Of a stretch of DNA of 64,000 nt, positions 9,428 through 64,000 are shown one piece after another. How positions within the stretch are numbered: position 1 is the first letter of the stretch; each line of letters starts with the position of its first letter. The DNA lies in assembly GCA_032622095.1 (NCBI GenBank), contig CP136064.1, forward strand, positions 5,387,512-5,451,511. The letters are read 5' to 3'. The translations under genes and the position numbers were made by a program. Below the pieces are notes generated by a model that was not told the DNA's origin, searched no databases, and worked only from the letters and a program-made list of their open reading frames with translations. The DNA comes from Siphonodentalium dalli (Eukaryota; Mollusca; Scaphopoda; Gadilida; Siphonodentaliidae).

Positions 9428-9759
9428 ACTAATTGATGAGTAGTATCCTTATTGGACCTTTTATATAAATACTCATTGATGACACCTCTATGGAGCCCCA
9501 GACTGAAAGAATGTTGCACTGATGACTGTCGTCTGCTTTGATCTTTGTGAGGCTCCATACGGGAGTGTTATATAAAGGAATACTTTCTATACTAAATACT
9601 CATTGACGAGTAGTTCCTTTTGGAAATGTTCAGATAACAATTAAGTTCAACAAACGAGGCCATTTTTATTACCGGAACACCCCTCTAAATGAATAATAGA
9701 CCATTAATGTTTACTTTTATAACTTGGTGGGAGAATCCATTTAGCATATAAAGGGTTAA
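9424..9759. mobile_element. TTAA element, family B5 (relative of the 68-bp satellite)
   Basis: The span between TTAA at 9424 and 9756 contains two versions of tactcattgatgagtagt, then ggaaatgttcagataa, which is the content of the 68-bp satellite monomer at 25-35 kb. It also contains the atgacacctctatggagccc segment that forms the 128-bp tandem repeat at 61364. It ends catataaagggttaa. Confidence 0.65.
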
Positions 9760-10052: not shown

Positions 10053-10253
10053 CCCTTTAAATTTACCCATCCAGGGTGGAATGCCAACCATTGAACTTAT
10101 TATCTGAACATTTCCCACCAATGAATATGAATCATTCTGATCTTGTATTATATGCTTTTTTCATCTGAACACTCCTCCAAATGAATAATAGACTATTCCA
10201 AAGTATACTTTTATAACTGAATGGGAGAAAGCATTTAGTTCAGAAAAGGTTAA
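10049..10253. mobile_element. TTAA element, family B6
   Basis: It begins TTAACCCTTTAAATTTACCC and ends gttcagaaaaggttaa. The interior includes gaacatttcccacc and cctccaaatgaataatagac, shared with 9650-9757 and 36993-37080. It is a further member of the TTAACCCTTT group with its own subterminal sequence. Confidence 0.6.
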
Positions 10254-15831: not shown

Positions 15832-16479
15832 AACACAGGGACCAGCCATGAGGGAGACTTGGGAGACAGGGACCAGCCATGAGGGAGACTTGGGAGACAG
15901 GGACCAGCCATGAGGGCGACTTGGGAGACAGGGACCAGCCATGAGGGAGACTTGGGAGACAGGGACCAGCCATGAGGGAGACTTGGGAGACAGGGACCAG
16001 CCATGAGGGAGACTTGGGAGACAGGGACCAGCCATGAGGGAGACTTGGGAGACAGGGACCAGCCATGAGGGAGACTTGGGAGACAGGGACCAGCCATGAG
16101 GGAGACTTGGGAGACAGGGACCAGCCATGAGGGAGACAGGGACCAGCCATGAGGGAGACTTGGGAGACAGGGACCAGCCATGAGGGAGACTTGGGAGATA
16201 GGGACCAGCCATGAGGGAGACTTGGGAGACAGGGACCAGCCATGAGGGAGACTTGGGAGACAGGGACCAGCCATGAGGGCGACTTGGGAGACAGGGACCA
16301 GCCATGAGGGAGACTTGGGAGACAGGGACCAGCCATGAGGGCGACTTGGGAGACAGGGACCAGCCATGAGGGCGACTTGGGAGACAGGAACCAGCCATGA
16401 GGGAGACTTGGGAGACAGGGACCAGCCATGAGGGAGACTTGGGAGACAGGGACCAGCCATGAGGGAGACTTGGGAGACA
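15832..16479. repeat. 31-bp minisatellite, locus 1
   Basis: About 21 head-to-tail copies of a 31-bp unit (cagggaccagccatgaggga plus gacttgggaga), with agggag and agggcg variants and one unit shortened near 16130. Because 31 is not a multiple of 3, every minus-strand frame reads through and yields the same repeating peptide. The long open frames here are therefore artefacts. Related arrays lie at 35719 and, inverted, at 50283. Confidence 0.97.
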
Positions 16480-24301: not shown

Positions 24302-24544
24302 TTAACTCTTTGAGTGCCAGGGGCCGATATTATCGGCCCTAAACCTACACAATAAGTCTGTTAAAGAATATAATAAAATATATTAAAATTGTAAAACAAA
24401 AACAAAAAACAAAAAAATTCTTAAGCCAATGCATTCTCTTATATATGCGAGGCGACCTATGGTCGACTCGCATATATAAGAGAATGCATTGGCACAGGGT
24501 ATATGGGTTTATACAAAAATCGGACCTGGCACTCAAAGGGTTAA
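24302..24544 (+). mobile_element. TTAA element, family B2 with hairpin H
   Basis: TTAA at 24302 and 24541. The ends are ttaactctttgagtgccagg and cctggcactcaaagggttaa. There is one H hairpin near the right side and a spacer with ttaaagaatataataaaat. Same layout as 3768-4002. Confidence 0.88.
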
Positions 24545-24659: not shown

Positions 24660-24956
24660 TTTAAGATATATAAAAGGTTGTCGACCACATAGTTCCCTGA
24701 AATGGTGGCTAACTCCAAAAGGCTAACTCCAAGGTGGCTAACTCCGAGATTGGCAGTGTTATTGAAATCGGTTAATATTTGTTTGAGTTATTGCACTTAC
24801 GACAAAAAAATGGCAAAAGTTCGTTAAACTAAGGGGCATAACTCAAGTAAGAAAAATAGGATGAAACTGTGACAACCAACTCATAAACAAACAATTATTG
24901 AAATCGGTTAATATTTGTTCGAGTTATTGCGCTCATGACAAAGAAACTGGTTTAAT
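24660..24956. repeat. Diffuse repeat M, upstream of the satellite
   Basis: It contains twice the phrase attgaaatcggttaatatttg (24762 and 24898) and ggggcataactcaag, like the M repeat at 6931. It leads straight into the first satellite units. Confidence 0.55.
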
Positions 24957-25082
24957 AAGTTTAACCCTTTCTATACTAAAGCATTATTGATGAGTAGTTA
25001 TCCCATAGGAAATGTTCAGGTAATAAGTTTAACCCTTTCTATACTAAAGCATTATTGATGAGTAGTTATCCCATAGGAAATG
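24957..25082. repeat. Two leading units of the 68-bp satellite
   Basis: Two units (taagtttaaccctttctata and on) are separated from the main array by an M repeat at 25083-25328. Confidence 0.9.
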
Positions 25083-25328
25083 TCAAAATAAGTCGAAAAT
25101 GAAGTGTAATGTTAGGAAAAACAGTCCGAGCCAACCCTGAGCCGCATCATGTGGAGAGGGTGTTGTGAGAAGCATGTATACCGAAAATTATTTAAATCGG
25201 TTCATATTTGTTAAAGTTATTAAGTCGGACAGAATTTTCTAAGTCAAAATAAGTCGAAAAGTAAGACGTAACTTAAAAAAAGAAAGTCGGACCGCACCGC
25301 AATTAGCATCATGCAGAGAGGCGGTCAG
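25083..25328. repeat. M repeat inside the satellite
   Basis: Closely matches 7090-7350 (gaagtgtaatgttaggaaaa, tatttaaatcggttcatatt, aagtcggacagaattttcta). It interrupts the satellite after its second unit. Confidence 0.75.
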
Positions 25329-28300
25329 GAAAATGTTCAGATAATAAGTTTAACCCTTTCTATACTAAAGCATCATTGATGAGTAGTTATCCTTTAGGAA
25401 TGTTCAGATAATAAGTTTAACCCTTTCTATACTAAAGCATCATTGATGAGTAGTTATCCCATAGGAAATGTTCAGATAATAAGTTTAACCCTTTCTATAC
25501 TAAAGTATCATTGATGAGTCGTTATCCTTAAGGAAATGTTCAGGTAATAAGTTTAACCCTTTCTATACTAAAGTATCATTGATGAGTCGTTATCCCATAT
25601 GAAATGTTCAGATAATAAGTTTAACACTTTCTATACTAAAGCATCATTGATGAGTAGTTATCCCATATGAAATGTTCAGATAATAAGTTTAACCTTTTCA
25701 ATACTAAAGCATCATTGATGGGTAGTTAACCCATAGGAAATGTTCAGGTAATAAGTTTAACCCTTTCTATACTAAAGTATCATTGATGAGTAGTTATCCT
25801 TAAGGAAATGTTCAGATAATTAGTTAACCCTTTCTACATTAAAGCACCATTGATGAGTAGTTATCCCATAGGAAATGTTCAGGTAATAAGTTTAACCCTT
25901 TCTATACTAAAGTATCATTGATGAGTAGTTATCCTTAAGGAAATGTTCAGATAATTAGTTAACCCTTTCTACATTAAAGCACCATTGATGAGTAGTTATC
26001 CCATAGGAAATGTTCAGATAATAAGTTTAACCCTTTCTATACTAAAGCATCATTGATGAGTAGTTATCCCATAGGAAATGTTCAGATAATAAGTTTAACC
26101 CTTTCTATACTAAAGCATCATTGATGAGTAGTTATCCCATAGGAAATGTTCAGATAATAAGTTTAACCCTTTCTATACTAAAGTATCATTGATGAGTCGT
26201 TATCCTTAAGGAAATGTTCAGGTAATAAGTTAAACCCTTTCTATACTAAAGTATCATTGATGAGTCGTTATCCTTAAGGAAATGTTCAGATAATAAGTTT
26301 AACCCTTTCTATACTGAAGCACCATTGATGAGTAGTTATCCCATAGGAAATGTTCAGGTAATAAGTTTAACCCTTTCTATACTAAAGTATCATTGATGAG
26401 TAGTTATCCTTAATGAAATGTTCAGATAATTAGTTAACCCTTTCTACATTAAAGCACCATTGATGAGTAGTTATCCCATAGGAAATGTTCAGATAATAAG
26501 TTTAACCCTTTCTATACTAAAGCATCATTGATGAGTAGTTAACCCATAGGAAATGTTCAGATAATAAGTTTAACACTTTCTATACTAAAGCATCATTGAT
26601 GAGTAGTTATCCCATATGAAATGTTCAGATAATAAGTTTAACCCTTTCTATACTAAAGCATCATTGATGAGTCGTTATCCCATAGGAAATGTTCAGGTAA
26701 TAAGTTTAACCCTTTCTATACTAAAGTATCATTGATGAGTAGTTATCCTTAAGGAAATGTTCAGATAATTAGTTAACCCTTTCTACATTAAAGCACCATT
26801 GATGAGTAGTTATCCCATAGGAAATGTTCAGATAATAAGTTTAACCCTTTCCATACTAAAGCATCATTGATGAGTAGTTAACCCATAGGAAATGTTCACA
26901 TAATAAGTTTAACCCTTTCCATACTAAAGCATCATTGATGAGTAGTTATCCTTAAGGAAAAGTTCAGATAATAAGTTTAACCCTTTCTATACTAAAGCAT
27001 CATTGATGAGTAGTTATCCCATAGGAAATGTTCAGATAATAAGTTTAACCCTTTCTATACTAAAGAAATATTGATGAGTAGTTATCCTTAAGGAAATGTT
27101 CAGATAATACGTTTAACCCTTTTTATACTAAAGCATCATTGATGAGTAGTTATCCCATAGGAAATGTTCAGATAATAAGTTTAACCCTTTCTATACTAAA
27201 GCATCATTGATGAGTAGTTATCCCATAGGAAATGTTCAGATAATAAGTTTAACCCTTTCTATACTGAAGCATCATTGATGAGTAGTTATCCCATAGGAAA
27301 TGTTCAGATAATAAGTTTAACCCTTTCTATACTAAAGCATCATTGATGAGTAGTTATCCCATAGGAAATGTTCAGATAATAAGTTTAACCCTTTCTATAC
27401 TAAAGCATCATTGATGAGTAGTTATCCCATAGGAAATGTTCAGATAATAAGTTTAACCCATTCTATACTAAAGCATCATTGATGAGTAGTTAACCCATAG
27501 GAAATGTTCACATAATAAGTTTAACCCTTTCCATACTAAAGCATCATTGATGAGTAGTTATCCTTAAGGAAATGTTCAGATAATAAGTTTAACCCTTTCT
27601 ATACTAAAGCATCATTGATGAGTAGTTATCCCATAGGAAATGTTCAGGTAATAAGTTTAACCCTTTCTATACTAAAGTATCATTGATGAGTAGTTATCCT
27701 TAAGGAAATGTTCAGATAATTAGTTAACCCTTTCTACATTAAAGCACCATTGATGAGTAGTTATCCCATAGGAAATGTTCAGATAATAAGTTTAACCCTT
27801 TCCATACTAAAGCATCATTGATGAGTAGTTAACCCATAGGAAATGTTCACATAATAAGTTTAACCCTTTCCATACTAAAGCATCATTGATGAGTAGTTAT
27901 CCTTAAGGAAATGTTCAGATAATAAGTTTAACCCTTTCTATACTAAAGCATCATTGATGAGTAGTTATCCCATAGGAAATGTTCAGATAATAAGTTTAAC
28001 CCTTTCTATACTAAAGTATCATTGATGAGTCGTTATCCTTAAGGAAATGTTCAGGTAATAAGTTTAACCCTTTCTATACTAAAGTATCATTGATGAGTCG
28101 TTATCCCATATGAAATGTTCAGATAATAAGTTTAACACTTTCTATACTAAAGCATCATTGATGAGTAGTTATCCCATATGAAATGTTCAGATAATAAGTT
28201 TAACCTTTTCAATACTAAAGCATCATTGATGGGTAGTTAACCCATAGGAAATGTTCAGGTAATAAGTTTAACCCTTTCTATACTAAAGTATCATTGATGA

Positions 28301-31300
28301 GTAGTTATCCTTAAGGAAATGTTCAGATAATTAGTTAACCCTTTCTACATTAAAGCACCATTGATGAGTAGTTATCCCATAGGAAATGTTCAGGTAATAA
28401 GTTTAACCCTTTCTATACTAAAGTATCATTGATGAGTAGTTATCCTTAAGGAAATGTTCAGATAATTAGTTAACCCTTTCTACATTAAAGCACCATTGAT
28501 GAGTAGTTATCCCATAGGAAATGTTCAGATAATAAGTTTAACCCTTTCTATACTAAAGCATCATTGATGAGTAGTTATCCCATAGGAAATGTTCAGATAA
28601 TAAGTTTAACCCTTTCTATACTAAAGCATCATTGATGAGTAGTTATCCCATAGGAAATGTTCAGATAATAAGTTTAACCCTTTCTATACTAAAGTATCAT
28701 TGATGAGTCGTTATCCTTAAGGAAATGTTCAGGTAATAAGTTAAACCCTTTCTATACTAAAGTATCATTGATGAGTCGTTATCCTTAAGGAAATGTTCAG
28801 ATAATAAGTTTAACCCTTTCTATACTGAAGCACCATTGATGAGTAGTTATCCCATAGGAAATGTTCAGGTAATAAGTTTAACCCTTTCTATACTAAAGTA
28901 TCATTGATGAGTAGTTATCCTTAATGAAATGTTCAGATAATTAGTTAACCCTTTCTACATTAAAGCACCATTGATGAGTAGTTATCCCATAGGAAATGTT
29001 CAGATAATAAGTTTAACCCTTTCTATACTAAAGCATCATTGATGAGTAGTTAACCCATAGGAAATGTTCAGATAATAAGTTTAACACTTTCTATACTAAA
29101 GCATCATTGATGAGTAGTTATCCCATATGAAATGTTCAGATAATAAGTTTAACCCTTTCTATACTAAAGCATCATTGATGAGTCGTTATCCCATAGGAAA
29201 TGTTCAGGTAATAAGTTTAACCCTTTCTATACTAAAGTATCATTGATGAGTAGTTATCCTTAAGGAAATGTTCAGATAATTAGTTAACCCTTTCTACATT
29301 AAAGCACCATTGATGAGTAGTTATCCCATAGGAAATGTTCAGATAATAAGTTTAACCCTTTCCATACTAAAGCATCATTGATGAGTAGTTAACCCATAGG
29401 AAATGTTCACATAATAAGTTTAACCCTTTCCATACTAAAGCATCATTGATGAGTAGTTATCCTTAAGGAAAAGTTCAGATAATAAGTTTAACCCTTTCTA
29501 TACTAAAGCATCATTGATGAGTAGTTATCCCATAGGAAATGTTCAGATAATAAGTTTAACCCTTTCTATACTAAAGAAATATTGATGAGTAGTTATCCTT
29601 AAGGAAATGTTCAGATAATACGTTTAACCCTTTTTATACTAAAGCATCATTGATGAGTAGTTATCCCATAGGAAATGTTCAGATAATAAGTTTAACCCTT
29701 TCTATACTAAAGCATCATTGATGAGTAGTTATCCCATAGGAAATGTTCAGATAATAAGTTTAACCCTTTCTATACTAAAGCATCATTGATGAGTAGTTAA
29801 CCCATAGGAAATGTTCACATAATAAGTTTAACCCTTTCCATACTAAAGCATCATTGATGAGTAGTTATCCTTAAGGAAATGTTCAGATAATAAGTTTAAC
29901 CCTTTCTATACTAAAGCATCATTGATGAGTAGTTATCCCATAGGAAATGTTCAGATAATAAGTTTAACCCTTTCTATACTAAAGTATCATTGATGAGTCG
30001 TTATCCTTAAGGAAATGTTCAGGTAATAAGTTTAACCCTTTCTATACTAAAGTATCATTGATGAGTCGTTATCCCATATGAAATGTTCAGATAATAAGTT
30101 TAACACTTTCTATACTAAAGCATCATTGATGAGTAGTTATCCCATATGAAATGTTCAGATAATAAGTTTAACCTTTTCAATACTAAAGCATCATTGATGG
30201 GTAGTTAACCCATAGGAAATGTTCAGGTAATAAGTTTAACCCTTTCTATACTAAAGTATCATTGATGAGTAGTTATCCTTAAGGAAATGTTCAGATAATT
30301 AGTTAACCCTTTCTACATTAAAGCACCATTGATGAGTAGTTATCCCATAGGAAATGTTCAGGTAATAAGTTTAACCCTTTCTATACTAAAGTATCATTGA
30401 TGAGTAGTTATCCTTAAGGAAATGTTCAGATAATTAGTTAACCCTTTCTACATTAAAGCACCATTGATGAGTAGTTATCCCATAGGAAATGTTCAGATAA
30501 TAAGTTTAACCCTTTCTATACTAAAGCATCATTGATGAGTAGTTATCCCATAGGAAATGTTCAGATAATAAGTTTAACCCTTTCTATACTAAAGCATCAT
30601 TGATGAGTAGTTATCCCATAGGAAATGTTCAGATAATAAGTTTAACCCTTTCTATACTAAAGTATCATTGATGAGTCGTTATCCTTAAGGAAATGTTCAG
30701 GTAATAAGTTAAACCCTTTCTATACTAAAGTATCATTGATGAGTCGTTATCCTTAAGGAAATGTTCAGATAATAAGTTTAACCCTTTCTATACTGAAGCA
30801 CCATTGATGAGTAGTTATCCCATAGGAAATGTTCAGGTAATAAGTTTAACCCTTTCTATACTAAAGTATCATTGATGAGTAGTTATCCTTAATGAAATGT
30901 TCAGATAATTAGTTAACCCTTTCTACATTAAAGCACCATTGATGAGTAGTTATCCCATAGGAAATGTTCAGATAATAAGTTTAACCCTTTCTATACTAAA
31001 GCATCATTGATGAGTAGTTAACCCATAGGAAATGTTCAGATAATAAGTTTAACACTTTCTATACTAAAGCATCATTGATGAGTAGTTATCCCATATGAAA
31101 TGTTCAGATAATAAGTTTAACCCTTTCTATACTAAAGCATCATTGATGAGTCGTTATCCCATAGGAAATGTTCAGGTAATAAGTTTAACCCTTTCTATAC
31201 TAAAGTATCATTGATGAGTAGTTATCCTTAAGGAAATGTTCAGATAATTAGTTAACCCTTTCTACATTAAAGCACCATTGATGAGTAGTTATCCCATAGG

Positions 31301-34230
31301 AAATGTTCAGATAATAAGTTTAACCCTTTCCATACTAAAGCATCATTGATGAGTAGTTAACCCATAGGAAATGTTCACATAATAAGTTTAACCCTTTCCA
31401 TACTAAAGCATCATTGATGAGTAGTTATCCTTAAGGAAAAGTTCAGATAATAAGTTTAACCCTTTCTATACTAAAGCATCATTGATGAGTAGTTATCCCA
31501 TAGGAAATGTTCAGATAATAAGTTTAACCCTTTCTATACTAAAGAAATATTGATGAGTAGTTATCCTTAAGGAAATGTTCAGATAATACGGTTAACCCTT
31601 TTTATACTAAAGCATCATTGATGAGTAGTTATCCCATAGGAAATGTTCAGATAATAAGTTTAACCCTTTCTATACTAAAGCATCATTGATGAGTAGTTAT
31701 CCCATAGGAAATGTTCAGATAATAAGTTTAACCCTTTCTATACTGAAGCATCATTGATGAGTAGTTATCCCATAGGAAATGTTCAGATAATAAGTTTAAC
31801 CCTTTCTATACTAAAGCATCATTGATGAGTAGTTATCCCATAGGAAATGTTCAGATAATAAGTTTAACCCTTTCTATACTAAAGCATCATTGATGAGTAG
31901 TTATCCCATAGGAAATGTTCAGATAATAAGTTTAACCCATTCTATACTAAACATCATTGATGAGTAGTTATCCCATAGGAAATGTTCAGATAATAAGTTT
32001 AACCCTTTCTATACTAAAGCATCATTGATGAGTAGTTATCCCATAGGAAATGTTCAGGTAATAAGTTTAACCCTTTCTATACTAAAGTATCATTGATGAG
32101 TAGTTATCCTTAAGGAAATGTTCAGATAATTAGTTAACCCTTTCTACATTAAAGCACCATTGATGAGTAGTTATCCCATAGGAAATGTTCAGATAATAAG
32201 TTTAACCCTTTCCATACTAAAGCATCATTGATGAGTAGTTAACCCATAGGAAATGTTCACATAATAAGTTTAACCCTTTCCATACTAAAGCATCATTGAT
32301 GAGTAGTTATCCTTAAGGAAATGTTCAGATAATAAGTTTAACCCTTTCTATACTAAAGCATCATTGATGAGTAGTTATCCCATAGGAAATGTTCAGGTAA
32401 TAAGTTTAACCCTTTCTATACTAAAGTATCATTGATGAGTAGTTATCCTTAAGGAAATGTTCAGATAATTAGTTAACCCTTTCTACATTAAAGCACCATT
32501 GATGAGTAGTTATCCCATAGGAAATGTTCAGATAATAAGTTTAACCCTTTCCATACTAAAGCATCATTGATGAGTAGTTAACCCATAGGAAATGTTCACA
32601 TAATAAGTTTAACCCTTTCCATACTAAAGCATCATTGATGAGTAGTTATCCTTAAGGAAATGTTCAGATAATAAGTTTAACCCTTTCTATACTAAAGCAT
32701 CATTGATGAGTAGTTATCCCATAGGAAATGTTCAGATAATAAGTTTAACCCTTTCTATACTAAAGAAATATTGATGAGTAGTTATCCTTAAGGAAATGTT
32801 CAGATAATACGTTTAACCCTTTCTATACTAAAGCATCATTGATGAGTAGTTATCCCATAGGAAATGTTCAGATAATAAGTTTAACCCTTTCTATACTAAA
32901 GCATCATTGATGAGTAGTTATCCCATAGGAAATGTTCAGATAATAAGTTTAACCCTTTCTATACTGAAGCATCATTGATGAGTAGTTATCCCATAGGAAA
33001 TGTTCAGATAATAAGTTTAACCCTTTCTATACTAAAGCATCATTGATGAGTAGTTATCCCATAGGAAATGTTCAGATAATAAGTTTAACCCTTTCTATAC
33101 TAAAGCATCATTGATGAGTAGTTATCCTATAGGAAATGTTCAGATAATAAGTTTAACCCTTTCTATACTGAAGCATCATTGATGAGTAGTTATCCTTAAG
33201 GAAATATTGAGATAAAATGTTTAAACCTTTCTATACTAAAGCATCATTGATGAGTAGTTATCCCATAGTACATGTTCAGATAATAAGTTTAGCCCACTCA
33301 ATACTAAAGCATGATTCATAAGTAGTTATCCAATAGGAAATGTTCAGATAATAAGTTTAACCCTTTCTATACTAAAGCATTATTGATGGGTAGTTATCCC
33401 ATAGGAAATGTTCATATAATAATTTGAACCTTTTCAATACTAAAGCATCATTGATGAGTAGTTATCCTTTAGGAAATGTTCAGATAATAAGTTTAACCCT
33501 TTCTATACTAAAGCATCATTGATGAGTAGTTCCTTTAGGAAATGTTCAGATAATAAGTTTAACCCTTTCTATACTAAAGTATCATTGATGAGTAGTTATC
33601 CTTAAGGAAATGTTCAGATAATTAGTTAACCCTTTCTACATTAAAGCACCATTGATGAGTAGTTATCCCATAGGAAATGTTCAGATAATAAGTTTAACCC
33701 TTTCCATACTAAAGCATCATTGATGAGTAGTTAACCCATAGGAAATGTTCACATAATAAGTTTAACCCTTTCCATACTAAAGCATCATTGATGAGTAGTT
33801 ATCCTATAGGAAATGTTCAGATAATAAGTTTAACCCTTTCTATACTGAAGCATCATTGATGAGTAGTTATCCTTAAGGAAATATTGAGATAAAATGTTTA
33901 AACCTTTCTATACTAAAGCATCATTGATGAGTAGTTATCCCATAGTACATGTTCAGATAATAAGTTTAGCCCACTCAATACTAAAGCATGATTCATAAGT
34001 AGTTATCCAATAGGAAATGTTCACATAATAAGTTTAACCCTTTCTATACTAAAGCATTATTGATGGGTAGTTATCCCATAGGAAATGTTCATATAATAAT
34101 TTGAACCTTTTCAATACTAAAGCATCATTGATGAGTAGTTATCCTTTAGGAAATGTTCAGATAATAAGTTTAACCCTTTCTATACTAAAGCATCATTGAT
34201 GAGTAGTTCCTTTAGGAAATGTTCAGATAA
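25329..34230. repeat. Main 68-bp satellite array, about 130 units
   Basis: The consensus unit runs ttaaccctttctatactaaa, gcatcattgatgagtagtta, tcccataggaaatgttcaga, taataagt and is 68 bp. A 67-bp variant has ataattagttaaccc and tctacattaaagcacc. Other marked variants (agtcgttatccttaagg, taaagaaatattg, gggtagttaaccc) recur in fixed order, giving higher-order repeats of 2511 and 1968 bp. Each unit contains the TTAACCCTTTC terminus of family B5, so the satellite seems to come from a TTAA element end. It has no coding potential. Confidence 0.98.
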
Positions 34231-34545
34231 TAAGTTCAATAAAAGGTCAGCCGACCACAGTGTCCCCCGAAAATGTGGCAAGTCGATGCCGCTTTGTTAA
34301 AGAAATTTAAAAAAATGTTGAAGTCGAAAAGGGTTAATAACTCCGTCAAAAAATATTTTTCCCCTCATCTATATACATGTTGCACATATCTTCAATATAT
34401 GGGCAACAATATTCTGAAGTTTCAAATCTCTGGGATGAAATCTGTAGGAGGAGATGATTACACCATGAAGGTACTCAAAAGTGTGACGGACGGACGGACG
34501 AACGGACAGTGCGACAGACGGATGAACGGACGGACGGAGCCCATT
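34231..34545. repeat. Non-satellite spacer with GGAC tract, copy 1
   Basis: It starts caataaaaggtcagccgacc, includes gaagtttcaaatctctggga and ends in gacggacggacggacgaacg. It is almost identical to 35284-35595, and both are bordered by satellite on the left. The open frame across it is not conserved and is probably not coding. Confidence 0.85.
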
Positions 34546-35283
34546 TCTATATTAAAGCACCATTGATGAGTAGTTATCCCATAGGAAATGTTCAGATAAT
34601 AAGTTTAACCCTTTCCATACTAAAGCATCATTGATGAGTAGTTAACCCATAGGAAATGTTCAGATAATAAGTTTAACCCTTTCCATACTAAAGCATCATT
34701 GATGAGTAGTTATCCTTAAGGAAATGTTCAGATAATAAGTTTAACCCTTTCTATACTAAAGCATGATTCATGAGTAGTTATCCCATAGGAAATGTTCATA
34801 TAATAATTTGAACCCTTTCCATACTAAAGCATCATTGATGAGTAGTTATTCCATAGGAAATGTTCAGATAATAAGTTTAACCTTTTCAATACTAAAGCAT
34901 CATTGATGAGTAGTTATCCTTTAGGAAATGTTCAGATAATAAGTTTAACCCTTTCTATACTAAAGCATCATTGATGAGTAGTTATTCCATAGGAAATGTT
35001 CAGATAATAAGTTTAACCTTTTCAATACTAAAGCATCATTGATGAGTAGTTATCCTTTAGGAAATGTTCAGATAATAAGTTTAACCCTTTCTATACTAAA
35101 GCATCATTGATGAGTAGTTATTCCATAGGAAATGTTCATATAATAAGTTTAACCTTTTCAATACTAAAGCATCATTGATGAGTAGTTATCCTTTAGGAAA
35201 TGTTCAGATAATAAGTTTAACCCTTTCTATACTAAAGCATCATTGATGAGTAGTTCCTTTAGGAAATGTTCAGATAATAAGTT
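34546..35283. repeat. 68-bp satellite, distal block
   Basis: About eleven further units. They alternate a ttattccatagg and a ttatcctttagg type with a period of two units, unlike the main array. Confidence 0.95.
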
Positions 35284-35595
35284 CAATAAAAGGTCAGCTG
35301 ACCACAGTGTCCCCCAAAAATGTGGCAAGCCGATGCCGCTTTGTTAAAGAAATTAAAAAAAATGTTGAAGTCGAAAAGGGTTAATAACTCCGTCAAAAAA
35401 TATTTTTCCCCTCATCTATATACATGATGCACATCTTCAATATATGGGCAACAATATTCTGAAGTTTCAAATCTCTGGGATGAAATCTGTAGGAGGAGAT
35501 GATTACACCATGAAGGTACTCAAAAGTGTGACGGACGGACGAACGGACAGTGCGACAGACGGATGAACGGACGGACGGAGCCCATTTCTATAGTC
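35284..35595. repeat. Non-satellite spacer with GGAC tract, copy 2
   Basis: Near-copy of 34231-34545 with small deletions (one GGAC unit fewer). It marks the right end of the satellite domain. A duplicated tatagtcccccaaaaataaa follows at 35590-35630. Confidence 0.85.
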
Positions 35596-35718
35596 CCCCA
35601 AAAATAAATATTATAGTCCCCCAAAAATAAATTTTTCGGGGACAATAAATATCCATTTAGTATAAACATGGTTAAGATGAACAATAGGTTGCTGGCAAAG
35701 AAGCCCTGTGGTGCCAAA

Positions 35719-36029
35719 CAGGGACCAGCCTTGAGGGCGACTTGGAAGACAGGGACCAGCCTTGAGGGCGACTTGGAAGACAGGGACCAGCCTTGAGGGC
35801 GACTTGGAAGACAGGGACCAGCCTTGAGGGCGACTTGGAAGACAGGGACCAGCCTTGAGGGCGACTTGGAAGACAGGGACCAGCCTTGAGGGCGACTTGA
35901 GAGACAGGGACCAGCCTTGAGGGCGACTTGGAAGACAGGGACCAGCCTTGAGGGTGACTTGGAAGACAGGGACCAGCCTTGAGGGCGACTTGGAAGACAG
36001 GGACCAGCCTTGAGGGCGACTTGGAAGAA
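35719..36029. repeat. 31-bp minisatellite, locus 2
   Basis: About ten units of cagggaccagccttgagggc plus gacttggaaga. The unit is a variant of that at locus 1 (ccttga for ccatga, ggaaga for gggaga). It is followed by a B1 element inserted between array and core. Confidence 0.96.
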
Positions 36030-36032
36030 GAC

Positions 36033-36383
36033 TTAACCCTTTACCCAACAAACCGGCCAAAACAAGCTTCAACAGCCTAAAATATCTTCGGTCTGTCTCA
36101 ATAGAACCATACAAATATGGATATCATTGGAACCGGCTCCTTGACCACATTGTGATAGTTAAAGTTATGCCCTGTGCCAATGCATTCTCTTATATATGCA
36201 AGTCGACAATAGGTCGCCTCGCATATATAAGAGAATGCATTGGCCTTACATTCTTTAACAATTTTATAATTTTTAATGTGTTAAGCCAATGCATTCTCTT
36301 ATATATGCGAGGCGACCTATGGTCGACTCGCATATATAAGAGAATGCATTGGCACAGGGCCGTTCTGTTGGGTAAAGGGTTAA
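36033..36383 (+). mobile_element. TTAA element, family B1, copy 5
   Basis: TTAA at 36033 and 36380, termini TTAACCCTTTACCCAACA, and two H hairpins. The poly-T part of the inner spacer is shortened. It lies inside repeat complex E. Confidence 0.92.
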
Positions 36384-36975: not shown

Positions 36976-36992
36976 ATGCAAACACTCACTGG

Positions 36993-37080
36993 TAACCCTA
37001 TCTATACTAAATGGATTCTCCTACCCAGTTATAAAAGTATGGTCTATTATTCATTTGGAGGGGTGTTCGGTTAATAAATA
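36993..37080. mobile_element. Fragment of TTAACCCTTT-type element
   Basis: It begins taaccctatctatactaaat and has ggagg(g)gtgttcggttaata. It matches parts of B5 and B6 elements at 9.6-10.2 kb in inverted order. Confidence 0.5.
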
Positions 37081-37219
37081 GAGGATATCTAGTGTTTTTG
37101 AGTGGATACCGAAAAATATGTCATGAGTGAGCGAGACAAATGTTTATTTTCGCGAGCGGCTTGTCTCGGTCACGAATGACATATTTTTCAGTATGCACTC
37201 AAAAAACACTAGATATTCT
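37081..37219. mobile_element. Fold-back element, about 140 bp
   Basis: Inverted arms of about 60 bp (atatctagtgtttttgagtg against cactcaaaaaacactagata, then gaaaaatatgtcat) meet at a centre with tttattttcgcg. No clear target duplication. The region 37220-37700 after it shows only C and T runs. Confidence 0.75.
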
Positions 37220-37704
37220 TTTTATTATACGCATTTCCAAAGAAATTCACCATTTACGACGTTAAATGATCTCACAATCGTCTTCAATCGATGCATCATT
37301 TTTGAAGCCATCAGCTGATCGCTGCCTGTTCACGCAATGCTACTTCACCATCCGCAGAATATAAAAATATAGTTCCCGTATTCTTCCCTTAACCCCCCCC
37401 CCCCATAAATATGTCGAATTTCAACATAAAATAGATTTTTTATTATAAATGTATTATCAGGGAATATAATATAAATTAGAATATCACAATGGGTTCTTTC
37501 ACTTTGTCCTTCTTCAACAGTACAAACCGGAAACAGTATTGGTACACGCAAGTGAATCGGTCGCACGCGCGAGCTAGTGTGAAAGTATATTATTCTATAT
37601 CCCCTTCTGGGTGATATCGATGTTTATCTAAACGCGTTTTTTTCTATAATTCACTGTTGAGCGTATAATAAAAGCAGACGACAGACAGAAAAAAGATAAT
37701 ACAA

Positions 37705-37827
37705 GAGCAGAATGATTTATATTCATTGGTGGGAAATGTTCACATAATAAGTTTAACAAATAACATATTATCTGAACATTTCGTAAGGGAACAACACATC
37801 AATGACTATTTAGTATAGACAAGGTTA
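37705..37827. mobile_element. B5-type fragment, satellite relative
   Basis: It contains ggaaatgttcacataataag and its inverted partner cttattatct-like gaacatttcgtaaggg, then the inverted satellite end tttagtatagacaaggttaa. Single-copy relatives of the satellite unit in inverted pairs support a MITE origin for the satellite. Confidence 0.6.
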
Positions 37828-38019
37828 AATCGGTGTGATAATATCTGATTTTTCCATGTTACATTATTTAGATAGTAAATCAATATCTATAATTAACATA
37901 GCATTTTATCAATGATAAAACAAAATTATATTGCGAAACAATTCACACAAAAGGTAACTTGAATCGTTGATCTGGGAAAGTCTGTCAGTTACATTCAGAG
38001 GTCAGTGGTTTTTACATGT

Positions 38020-39077: not shown

Positions 39078-39402
39078 TTAATCCTTTCAGGACGGGAGCT
39101 GCACTGGTGCAGCATTAAAGATCCTGTGCCAGTGCATTCTCTTATATATGCGAGTCCCCCAGGGAACCTCAGATATATAAGAGAATGCACTGGGTTACAA
39201 TTTCAAGATAGATATTGTTCGGCCAATGAATTCTCTTATATATGCGAGGCTCCCTATGGAAGCGATGATACGAGAACGATATGATTCATATTCATTGGAG
39301 GGAAATGATGAGATAATAAGTTTATCCTTGTTAAACTTATTATTAACTGAACATTTCCTATGGGAACTACTCATCAATGAGTATTTAGTATAGAAAGGGG
39401 TC
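39078..39402. mobile_element. Composite B4/B5 TTAA element
   Basis: It starts TTAATCCTTTCAGGACGGGA (B4), passes through a degraded H hairpin, then an inverted pair of satellite-like ends (gataataagttta / taaacttattatt), and ends atttagtatagaaagggg. This is a junction between two element types. Confidence 0.6.
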
Positions 39403-39888
39403 AATTGCTTATTACACTTTTAGTACACACTTATTGCTATCTTTCGGTTTATTACATGACTTCAGTCTGTGTGGTAATTTCACCCAAATGCACTTGAGCT
39501 ATACCGATAGCATTTGTGACATGCAAACTCGTATTATGTTGAATAGATGTCTAATTAACATGGAAACCGAACAGAAACAATTATTTGATAAAGAATATCG
39601 AATGCTGGTGTGTTATAAGCATTCATGTGAAGGAGGTGAGATTGATCGCACTCTTTTGTTATAACGCATAATGTTACATCTCGATCCTGACGGTTATTAT
39701 CGTAACAATGTACCGCAACAAACTTCTGAAATAACGTTTACCAAATTCACACTCTGTACAGTTCTGTCTCATTCAGATGTACGTTCTCTGAGAATCTTAC
39801 ATTAAAATAATGACCAGTTTTATATAGCGATTGACCAATTATTTGCTATAACATGCTTTTAAACATTATACAGTTATCGCCCGCGATT
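39403..39888. other. No recognisable feature
   Basis: A 76-codon open frame at 39434-39664 has no motif that I recognise. It could be chance. No repeats are seen. Confidence 0.4.
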
Positions 39889-50250: not shown

Positions 50251-50282
50251 GAAGTTGCACATTTTAGGGAGAAGATGTATCC

Positions 50283-50898
50283 CATGTCGCCCTCTAGACT
50301 GGTCCCTGTCTCCCAAGTCCCCCTCTAGACTAGTCCCTGTCTCCCAAGTCACCGTCTAGGCTGGTCCCTGTCTCCCAAGTCGCCCTCTAGACTGGTCCCT
50401 GTCTCCCAAGTCGCCCTCTAGGCTGGTCCCTGTCTCCCAAGTCACAGTCTAGGCTGGTCCCTGTCTCCCAAGTCGCCCTCTAGACTGGTCCCTGTCTCCC
50501 AAGTCACTGTCTAGACTGGTCCCCGTCTCCCAAGTCACTGTCTAGGCTGGTCCCTGTCTCCCAAGTCACCGTCTAGGCTGGTCCCTGTCTCCCAAGTCAC
50601 TGTCTAGACTGGTCCCTGTCTCCCAAGTCACTGTCTAGGCTGGTCCCTTTTTCCGAAGTCACCCTCTAGGCTGGTCCCTGTCTCCCAAGTCACTGTCTAG
50701 ACTGGTCCCTATCTCCCAAGTCACTGTCTAGGCTGGTCCCTGTCTCCCAAGTCACCCTCTAGGCTGGTCCCTGTCTCCCAAGTCACTGTCTAGACTGGTC
50801 CCTGTCTCCCAAGTCACTGTCTAGGCTGGTCCCTGTCTCCCAAGTCACCGTCTAGGCTGGTCCCTGTCTCCCAAGTCACCGTCTAGGATGGTCCCTGA
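50283..50898. repeat. 31-bp minisatellite, locus 3 (inverted)
   Basis: About 20 units of ctggtccctgtctcccaagt plus cacygtctagr, the reverse complement of the locus 1 unit. Variants alternate between gccctc, accgtc and actgtc, and between aggct and agact. Stretch 50899-51120 has no feature. Confidence 0.96.
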
Positions 50899-60192: not shown

Positions 60193-60765
60193 GACTGGAG
60201 TAGTCTTATTGTAGCTGAACGTACATTCCAACAAATAAAGGATTGACCATAATTCCAATGAATACTTTTAGAATTGAATCAATAATAACAGGGCTAAGCA
60301 CTATTTGATCAACTTGAAATATTTAACACATAATTTAATGAGTTGAACAATAGCTGTTAAAGAACCAAATATAAAAGAATTCAATATAATGAAGCACGAG
60401 AACTGACCTTTAGGATACAAAAGATTCAAGGTTTAATAGAGAAAGATTCCGTTACTTTTTCACAAAGCAAAACATCAATGTGCGCACCTAATCAATCCAC
60501 TATCAAGTATCGATTACGCGGTGTGGCATCATTTCCAATATGACATTTTGTTTATTGATTCCAGTTAGACTGAGGTACTTTAGTAAGTAAGGTGACAAAC
60601 TATAAACATTTTGCAATGTTATACTTGGTCGGTCAATGAATATCAAACCAAATTCATATTCAGTGATAAAAACTCAAAACTGAAACCACTTTTCTTAGTT
60701 AACTCATTAAAAATTTATTACTTATTGATGAGCAATTATCCTGTTTATTCACTTGTAGGGATGTT
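60193..60765. repeat. Segment J, copy 3 (long form)
   Basis: It contains ccaacaaataaaggattgac, gctaagcactatttgatcaa, then the J core. It aligns with copy 4 at an offset of 650 bp. Confidence 0.88.
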
Positions 60766-61350: not shown

Positions 61351-61363
61351 CATAACAGAACAA

Positions 61364-61791
61364 GGAAACCCTTTCTATACTAAATACTCATTGATGACAC
61401 CTCTATGGAGCCCCAGACTGAGAGAAAGATGCACTGATGATTGTCTTCTGCTTGAGTAATTGTGAGGCTCCATACAGGAGTGTTATATAAAGGAAACCCT
61501 TTCTATACTAAATACTCATTGATGACACCTCTATGGCGCCCCAGACTGAGAGAACGATGCACTGATGATTGTCTTCTGCTTGAGTAATTGTGAGGCTCCA
61601 TACAGGAGTGTTATATAAAGGAAACCCTTTCTATACTAAATACTCATTGATGACACCTCTATGGCACCCCAGACAGAGAGAACGATGCACTGATGATTGT
61701 CTTCTGCTTGAGTAATTGTGAGGCTCCATACAGGAGTGTTATATAAAGGAAACCCTTTCTCAGATACTAAATACTCATTGATGACACCTCT
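61364..61791. repeat. 128-bp tandem repeat
   Basis: Unit starts at 61364, 61492, 61620 and 61748 give a period of exactly 128 bp, 3.3 copies. The unit begins ggaaaccctttctatactaa, the same motif as the 68-bp satellite and B5 termini, and includes ctccatacaggagtgttata. A single diverged copy lies at about 9455-9590. Confidence 0.96.
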
Positions 61792-63204
61792 ATGATTTCG
61801 GAACGGACTTAGTAAACATTTTCCAAACAATTGATTCCTTCTGTGTTATCAAGCTAGTACGATAAGTCAAAAAATAAACACTCAAAAAATAAACACTCAA
61901 TAACAGTAAATATGACATGTTTACATAGCTCCACATGTCAAAACCACTTTAGAAACAGGACCCGTTAACCAACAAACCATTTAACTTATGGATGGTTGAT
62001 TGTATACCTGTATATATGTGGGATGGCCCATGTTTTTGTCGGCTATCACGATAACAATTTGTATGCCTGGGAACTTTGAACACAATTCCAACCGATGTAC
62101 CATATCAATACACAACTGTTATATACTCTACATAATATTAAAGAGCGTCCACCATGTCATATGTATAGGTTTGTAATTTAATTACTTACTAACAACAGCC
62201 CTATATATCAATTATCATGACAAGTGTAGGATGGACATGTTGTCGTGTGATGTGTGGATGCTTGCTGCATGTTTGTCCTTTGGACTGGGCTGCTTTTTGC
62301 ATGAGGATTTGTTTATCTATTATTTAATTTTAATACGGAATTATGGTTGCCGATGATCAAACAACGGGACCTCCCTTGATCAAGTAAACAAAATAACCTG
62401 TCACGATAGTGTGTGGATAATTCGATAATAAAAAAATTTCAGTGTTGGTATTTTTTAATAAGTATATAAATATTATGGTTTACATATGCATATACATGTT
62501 AAGCGCAATTATCTTACAAAGACGGGGGATCCGGACTGGGAAACTCGTGGTTAATAAATGTACAGTAACGACATGGAGACCTCACGGGTACTAAATTTAC
62601 AGAAATGACCAGGGGGCCTCGCTTTTTTGATTATTTCTTTTTCACATAACTTTGATCATACAATGATTAAATTAAATATTATTATGAAATATAAATCATA
62701 ACACGAAATTTGTATGTGTTCTCTGGGTTTCTGCTATCTTTTATTTTCCTACTCTTTATGACTATATCAGAAACTGCCTATACAGCAGAGTGCTCTACCT
62801 ATCATTAGCTTATGTCAGCTTCCGGTGGGTAAGACATGGTACCTCTAATTGTGGACTCTTCTGCTATAGGGCATCCCCCCTTTACTCACATAATGTGGGT
62901 CACACAAAGCTACGATATATGGAACCCATAGCGAGATGTTCTGCGATAGAGGGTTCTTTTGGCCCTGTAGACTGTTTGACGTATTTATTTTACATCCTAA
63001 TTTTGATATTTTCACCATTATCACCTTATTTGACAAGCTCTTAAACTTTTGTTTAACGTTTTATTTCACAAAAATACCCAGCACAGAACTCGTATACATT
63101 ATGTGATAACCCAACCTAAAAATTGTTAACTTATAATTCAGTGGGAGTGTCGTGCGCCTTACTGGATGGGTCATCAAGGCGGGAACTTAAATATTGCCAA
63201 ATGA
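61792..63204. other. Apparently unique DNA, no gene recognised
   Basis: About 1.4 kb without repeats shared elsewhere in the window. Open frames up to 84 codons (62790-63044) show no known motif. A duplicated aaaaaataaacactcaa is at 61868 and 61883. Confidence 0.5.
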
Positions 63205-64000
63205 ATGAATATATATTTGTGATGCATAACATTTACACAAAATTGAGTATTCACGATATTATTTATAAACAAACCCCCCCCCTTATGATCGCCCTACCAC
63301 CACGTGAACGCGCCTCGTTGTTATAATCATTAATTATACGGTCGACACAGCCATTTTGGTACCCATTTACGATATATTATACAAATGTATAACAATCCTT
63401 AATGGTGTTATTTATATACACAACTCCCCCTTATGATTTCCATACCACCACGTGAACGCGCCCTGTTGTTGTAATCATTAATTTCGCAGTGGACACAGAC
63501 AACCTGGTACCCATTTACGATAATCATACAATTTTTTTTAAACACTCCTTAATTGTGTGGTGCCAATCACGCACTTCTCAAGGAACAACGCTCTTTAAAT
63601 GAGCTACATCAACCTAAGGGAATGGCCAAAAGTCGGAATCATTTCACTAAAATTAATCTTGGAATTATTATATAATATACACATCCCAACAGTACTAGTA
63701 CAGTAGATCGCGACCTTAATCACGACAGTTCAGTCGTGATGCATAACATTTACACAAAATATGTTTTAAAGATATTATTTATAAATGGAACTTCCCGCTT
63801 ATGATTTCCATACCATCACGTGAACGCGCCTCGTTGTTGTAATAATTAATTTCGCGATGTACATAGCCATGTGGTACCCATTTACGATATATTTTTTACA
63901 AATTTATGGACACTCGTTAATGGGTTGGTTCAATCATGCACATGCTCAAATAACACGCTCTTTAAAAAGAGCTTAAACTAACTTAAGGGAATGGCCGCAA
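63205..64000. repeat. CACGTG-containing repeat at right edge
   Basis: Three copies carry cacgtgaacgcgcc (63301, 63449, 63817) followed by gttgt(t/a)taat(c/a)attaat and ggtacccatttacga. Copies 2 and 3 are 368 bp apart. Copy 1 is 148 bp before copy 2 and lacks the section with ctctttaaa(t/a)(g/a)agct and aagggaatggcc. The array reaches the window end and probably continues. Confidence 0.88.

Follow-up and report, generated by a model that had tools for sequence, protein, structure and literature searches.

The beginnings of satellites usually go unseen because the intermediates are lost. In Xenopus, the Xstir tandem repeats ride on Xmix (T2), a miniature inverted-repeat transposable element (MITE) with a TTAA target (Hikosaka and Kawahara 2004, as cited in PMC12628747, PMC6004289 and PMC9659126), and a table of PMC9659126 names the terminal inverted repeat (TIR) as repeat source. 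Terminal-region repeats of the Drosophila virilis element Tetris (TIR-220) are described to expand to kb-size satellite arrays (PMC4079207). The CMITE elements of Acropora, piggyBac-type MITEs with TTAA and mostly CCCTTT ends, are reported in tandem arrays (PMC2872659), and Helitron arrays are reported to combine several 5' ends with only one 3' end (Xiong et al., as cited in PMC12628747). Here, we describe a 68-bp satellite in a 64,000-nucleotide stretch of Siphonodentalium dalli, hereafter the window (contig CP136064.1, C4:5387512-5451511 of the 2.23-Gb, nine-contig genome). This satellite very probably arose by tandem amplification of one end, termed A, of a non-autonomous TTAA DNA transposon. 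The element has two different ends, A and B, and is, to judge by them, a piggyBac-type MITE.

As with Xstir and Xmix, MITE, pure array and composite are all present here, as single MITEs, as arrays without MITE interior and as the array-bearing elements at loci L074 and L059. However, the ends of Xmix (T2) are AGGRR and are assigned to Kolobok in PMC6004289, whereas the present ends are CCCTTT, TTAACCCTTT; the element is hence not T2. According to the same sources, Xstir is an amplified internal segment forming one repeat family, whereas several unit designs derive from one end here. Tetris, in contrast, is described as a foldback element whose TIRs contain 220-bp repeats and whose arrays lie in beta-heterochromatin (PMC4079207), CMITE arrays are described as consisting of full-sized MITEs and not of one end (PMC2872659), and for Helitrons, which are rolling-circle transposons, a different mechanism is proposed (PMC12628747). 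The kind of satellite is thus known from Xstir and Tetris; the additions are several designs from one end, a contrast between the A and B ends and a distal bias. Among the open-licence titles listed for piggyBac or MITE satellites, chiton satellites and subtelomeric TIR satellites, none deals with a range of unit designs derived from a single end. One genome here contains single ends, elements with two and with 29 units, element-attached arrays, free long arrays and a B-end control, so that what makes a sequence tandemise, and where arrays grow, can be counted within it.

The initial annotation, made from the letters of the window alone, had derived the satellite from the end of a TTAA element and had held that the lack of any full element with these ends would speak against this. 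The derivation is well supported, since elements with both ends were found and 13 of 29 testable array segments continue into such an element. Exact copies of the family 20-mer number 8,116 + 8,051 (16,167) genome-wide, compared to none for the reversed control. Short elements with both A and B ends are present at L001, L005 and L008 (L005 and L008 have flanks in common), and a script detected the B end in six of the 11 single A ends of L059-L073 (L062, L063, L065, L067, L072 and L073). Since an exact 41-mer served to select the 15 A ends L059-L073, their left TTAA and their TACTC state are given by the selection. In 17 elements with both ends, the innermost A terminus lies 233-284 bp (12 elements) or 183-206 bp (five) from the B terminus. 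Five of the 17 (L062, L067, L072, L073, L074) have TTAA on both sides, as in a piggyBac-type target duplication, seven have one base changed on one side and five have more changes, the left TTAA of L059-L073 being required by the search pattern. Both ends begin with TTAA-CCCTTTCTATACTAAA, that is, with the CC[C/T]T terminal motif used to define piggyBac-type MITEs in PMC2872659, and the TIR agrees with the length of about 12-19 bp expected of such elements. By its ends the element is a non-autonomous, 230-285 bp piggyBac-type MITE; its mobilisation by a piggyBac transposase is putative.

The A and B ends have the terminus TTAACCCTTTCTATACTAAA in common and differ in their subterminal sequences. 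Inward of the terminus, the A end carries TACTCATTGATGAGTAGTTCCCTTAGGAAATGTTCAGATAATAAGTTCAAC, a loop and the opposite hairpin arm, while the B end carries GGATTCTCCCA...AGTTATAAAAGTATAC. The A end is thus laid out as a TTAACCC terminus, a short palindrome and a long-stemmed hairpin. Three single A ends fold strongly as DNA (z -4.18, -6.34 and -7.61), whereas an array dimer shows no strong fold (z -0.65, 50 of 200 shuffles equally good). The 65-68-bp unit thus extends from the element terminus to the hairpin apex and includes one stem arm only.

Many arrays lie within elements. The clearest case is L074 (C3:267.15 Mb), where the flank is followed by TTAA, 28 units of about 45 bp, a 29th unit continuing through GGAAATG into the MITE interior, a single B end and TTAA; one MITE hence carries the A end 29 times and the B end once. 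L059 has the same 45-bp design but only two units, other flanks and a right TTAA changed to TTAC. A B end was also found beyond the arrays of L040, L045, L049, L052 and L059, so that, with L074, a single B end can be recognised past six of the arrays. Both sides of the arrays were compared using 35 groups of same-strand TIR matches in the examined sequence, six of which are cut off on the inner side and were not scored (in one, L076, the hairpin is visible by eye). MITE interior was present at the inner side of 13 of the 29 testable segments (scores 25.5-111) and at the outer side of none (highest score 14.5); these are not counts of independent events, because local duplicates, several pieces of a single array and one chance pair are among the segments.

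The common units begin at the TTAA terminus and end at an internal point, either just before GGAAATG (45 bp) or at the hairpin apex (65-68 bp). Unit designs comprise 45 bp (L044, L046, L059, L074-L078), 49/50 bp (L043), 65 bp (L068), 66 bp (L040, L045), 67/68 bp and 128 bp. The junction CCCTTA/TTAACC gives 45 bp, AATAAGA/TTAACC gives 49/50 bp in L043 and 68 bp in L049, AATAAG/TTAACC gives 65-67 bp, and AATAAGT/TTAACC gives 66-68 bp. Exact copies of the 45-bp junction (34-mer) number 189 genome-wide and those of the 68-bp junction (44-mer) 1,920. Cores of type I occur in L059 and L074 (45 bp), L068 and L049, cores of type II in L006, L007 and L050 (GC-type 68 bp) and in L052, whereas L040, L045 and L046 are ambiguous; the core-type probes were written by eye, that for type II being taken from L050 itself. 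The core types suggest, without proving it, that the arrays had more than one origin.

Arrays were seen of the A end only. Genome-wide, the B end is present in 1,147 exact copies; among the 100 matches listed, all on C1, none is in tandem and neighbours are separated by at least about 2 kb. A 26-base B subterminal probe gave 18 matches in the examined sequence, none with a same-strand neighbour within 140 bp, in contrast to 501 such neighbour pairs for 596 TIR matches. A 12-base B probe (43 matches, none tandem) was dropped as a control, as many chance matches are expected at two mismatches by a rough estimate. A and B have their terminus in common, so the TIR does not by itself account for tandemisation.

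Array loci lie near chromosome ends, single ends do not. Distal was defined by sequence position as the outer 15% on each side, and single ends were taken as single from the list of exact matches. By complete lists, the genome contains 39 exact 68-bp dimers, which fall into 20 loci on eight of nine contigs, the window among these loci, and 55 TACTC...TTCAAC single ends, the nearest two of which are 88,695 bp apart. Distal positions were occupied by 14 of the 20 dimer loci and by 13 of the 55 single ends (Fisher 3.7e-4, Mann-Whitney 1.2e-5) or, after merging at 1 Mb, by 14 of 19 and 12 of 51 (Mann-Whitney 1.1e-5). Among the matches listed for the 45-bp junction (up to C3), 14 of 16 loci were distal (Mann-Whitney 3.4e-6 against single ends), and 10 of 12 after the same merging (3.2e-5). 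Ends of 68-bp type with a MITE-like apex were intermediate (26 of 69 loci distal, 24 of 62 merged); they differed from the TACTC ends (0.009) as well as from the dimers (0.005). The position of single TACTC ends was not different from uniform (Kolmogorov-Smirnov 0.29). Tests on partial lists agreed (14 of 16 array loci against 11 of 62 others; 9 of 11 against 6 of 37 when merged on C1-C3). Since exact dimers mark recently homogenised arrays, the distal bias may concern homogenisation as much as birth. The initial annotation had placed source, single copies and derived array together in the window, as if at a birthplace; nothing supports this reading, since the 68-bp junction has 1,920 exact copies genome-wide, among which the window array is a single large, distal case.

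This array had been described as a 9 kb satellite ending at 34230. The array is confirmed but continues beyond this point: Tandem Repeats Finder (TRF) reported 68 bp x 146 at 25331-35283, interrupted by a 310-bp non-repeat stretch. The main array (25331..34236, plus strand, 131 fuzzy TIR matches) has AATAAGTTCAA at its inner edge and then non-MITE sequence, and a second stretch with 11 TIR matches follows at 34546..35283 (plus strand, TRF). Two outer A-end units precede the array at 24953..25083 (plus strand, TRF 68 bp, 100%). Cutting at 141 unit anchors gave 140 segments, of which 120 are 68 bp, 17 are 67 bp and three have other lengths. The 20-mer, at up to 3 mismatches, matched 150 times in the window and never in 100 shuffles. 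The earlier statement that every 68-bp unit contains TTAACCCTTTCTATACTAAA was too strong, as only 72 exact copies occur in 25331-35283 (68 up to 34230) compared to 141 anchors. The 140 segments comprise 43 distinct monomers in a repeated, structured order. Three plus-strand block copies of about 2.05 kb, or about 30 monomers, lie at 25399-27472, 27910-29970 and 29878-31951, the last two overlapping by about 90 bp; their pairwise identity is 99.6-99.95% by an ungapped shift scan. The window array has thus grown recently by blocks of about 2 kb, and such a 10 kb array with near-identical blocks is a satellite in the sense of long, homogenised head-to-tail arrays.

The right flank of the array was duplicated together with part of it. 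One flank copy is trapped within the array (34236..34545, plus strand) and the second lies at the array edge (35284..35590, plus strand). The new junction is at TTTCTATA, in the short homology TTTCTA(TA), six to eight bases of which are common to flank and unit depending on the donor monomer. This points to a short-homology tandem duplication at the window locus. About 370 bp past the array, a degraded B-like terminus (35656..35675, minus strand, 3 mismatches; shuffles gave 0 matches at up to 3 mismatches) is possibly the far end of the element that carries the array.

For the family as a whole, we favour the MITE as the older form, because a hairpin that MITEs carry intact is cut in two at the array junction. 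The opposite order, with a pre-existing 68-bp satellite captured by a transposase and then seeding the dispersed ends, appears very unlikely: at the array junction the terminus meets one half of a hairpin, the other half of which is present in MITEs; one MITE end contains both the 45-bp and the 68-bp design; MITE interior lies at the inner side of arrays only; and the 55 TACTC...TTCAAC ends are dispersed. What this order would explain lies in the 68-bp subfamily. There, 79 exact GCATC...TTCAAC ends (68-bp type with MITE-like apex, dispersed or innermost) are spread over all nine contigs, and 19 of them (raw count) have the exact TTTAACCC terminus upstream, the terminus after T that is expected of array-derived ends. 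These 79 ends could have been seeded by array-bearing elements, and in this subfamily single ends may be older or younger than arrays. According to the initial annotation, dispersed copies nested within the satellite diversity would tell against the MITE as source; this is only partly answered by a unit tree of 142 rows, which is poorly resolved (four of 130 inner branches starred, 99 open) and has too few columns to settle nesting. Its single ends, most of which (of 18) were picked for their TACTC state, are clustered but do not form one group or clade (12 changes, shuffled mean 17.2). Several further points, like this tree, weigh against the MITE end as source. Sixteen of the 29 testable segments, including the window's five, lack MITE interior, one of them being a chance pair and not an array (window minus strand near 60446). 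Searching by the TIR favours units that contain it, sampling of array loci was uneven, most of them coming from the initial 8 Mb of C1, and shared flanks or near-identical sequence mark some as local duplicates (L005/L008, L006/L007, L039/L042, L040/L045, L047/L048). Among 30 examined of 128 PF13843 matches, none carries such ends as its own; at L017 and L028 such ends are close by and were read as separate insertions. When the flanks of 17 elements were joined, the examined sequence contained no match spanning the junction, and with no empty site found, the mobility of array-bearing elements is something we infer.

Other routes from the MITE to the array were also considered. A single origin, in which one dimer arose once and all periods reflect later deletions or additions, is rather doubtful. 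The 45-bp junction is identical at loci with different flanks (L044, L059, L074), a single change on the unit tree accounts for the GC/TA state (scored in all but 21 of the 142 rows), and L046(-) combines 45- and 68-bp units in one array, all as expected from one founder; yet the 45- and 68-bp junctions differ, and core type I carries 45-bp (L059, L074), 65-bp (L068) and one 68-bp design (L049) whereas type II carries the GC-type 68-bp units of L006, L007 and L050. A core tree of 20 rows (three of 17 inner branches starred), which grouped 68-bp L046 with L050, holds too few array cores to count origins. We regard as unlikely a nested self-insertion, that is, a copy entering TTAA at the hairpin apex of another copy, with recombination leaving tandem A ends. 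L005, a single-copy A end with AAGTTTAAC at its apex, would suit this, as would the several junctions that start exactly at TTAA. In L074, however, the remainder of the outer element past the B end was not seen, TTAACAA follows 27 B ends (raw count), and for the 45-bp design TTAA is near the required place in one of 18 single ends (L005 only), with CCCATTAACC predicted and CCCTTATTAACC observed. That the arrays are artefacts of assembly is extremely improbable: tandem arrays are hard to assemble and the analysis used the assembly and no raw reads, but exact 68-bp dimers occur on eight of nine contigs, the 43 monomers of the window array are in structured order, and flank DNA is duplicated with it.

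If the satellite is an amplified A end, the first duplication may reflect template switching, or joining of the microhomology type, that linked the terminus to an internal point, preferably the hairpin apex. It may have taken the same short-homology route as the flank duplication in the window; the exact TTAA start of several junctions would also suit a transposase-processed end. Some duplicated elements would have spread by transposition, unequal exchange would later have expanded the arrays, chiefly in distal regions where recombination is presumably frequent, and some arrays, such as that of the window, would have lost most of their element. We tentatively extend this to a view of the A end as a recurrent satellite nursery, possible though short of probable, in which TTAA terminus and hairpin apex are preferred breakpoints, short arrays are carried along with the element and only distal ones grow, the B end serving as a natural negative control.

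The dispersed element ends noted earlier in the window are real, but are of two kinds, A (9577, 37828(-), 39403(-)) and B (9759(-), 10253(-), 36992). A dispersed MITE remnant at 9577..9759 (plus strand) has its A end at 9577 and its B end at 9759(-), and a further dispersed B end lies at 10234..10253 (minus strand). In 36992..37828 (minus strand), other DNA separates the B end at 36992 (+) from a single A end with subterminal hairpin at 37722-37828 (-; fold z -6.34), and another such A end is found at 39290..39403 (minus strand, fold z -4.18). The second derived array proposed for the window, a 128-bp repeat placed at 61364, was recovered by TRF at 61362..61794 (plus strand, 3.4 copies). By eye, its unit is a hybrid in which about 43 bp of A end are joined to about 85 bp from another element type that has the TIR in common (cf. 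L041, L053). Within a few bases of its end starts a tandem repeat of about 3.0 kb (window about 61791-64000), copies of which begin at 2309, 5317 and 8323 of L058 with 99.9-100% identity to the window. At G000:C1:252792191-252793887, four 68-bp-type ends are spaced 412, 412 and 820 bp, perhaps within a larger unit that includes the A end.

The piggyBac transposase loci L018, L019, L022-L025, L028, L029 and L031, several of them with open frames over 600 amino acids, have one end, TTAACCCTTTATCTGCTATACGCGAC, in common (one base different in L022). Two more short elements with TTAA-type inverted ends lie in the window at 24302-24544 (TTAACTCTTTGAGTGCCAGG) and 36032-36383 (TTAACCCTTTACCCAACA); the latter type also occurs within A-end elements at L046, L050 and L071. 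A palindrome of about 33 bp, GCCAATGCATTCTCTTATATATGCGAGGCGACC, recurs with variants, often in TTAA elements (24425-24493, 36174-36343, 39113-39192). A 31-bp minisatellite family (ACAGGGACCAGCC...GACTTGG) occupies 15835-16479, 35718-36028 and, on the other strand, 50276-50897, and a 114-bp satellite with units matching at 98% covers 1-814, beginning at the first base of the window.

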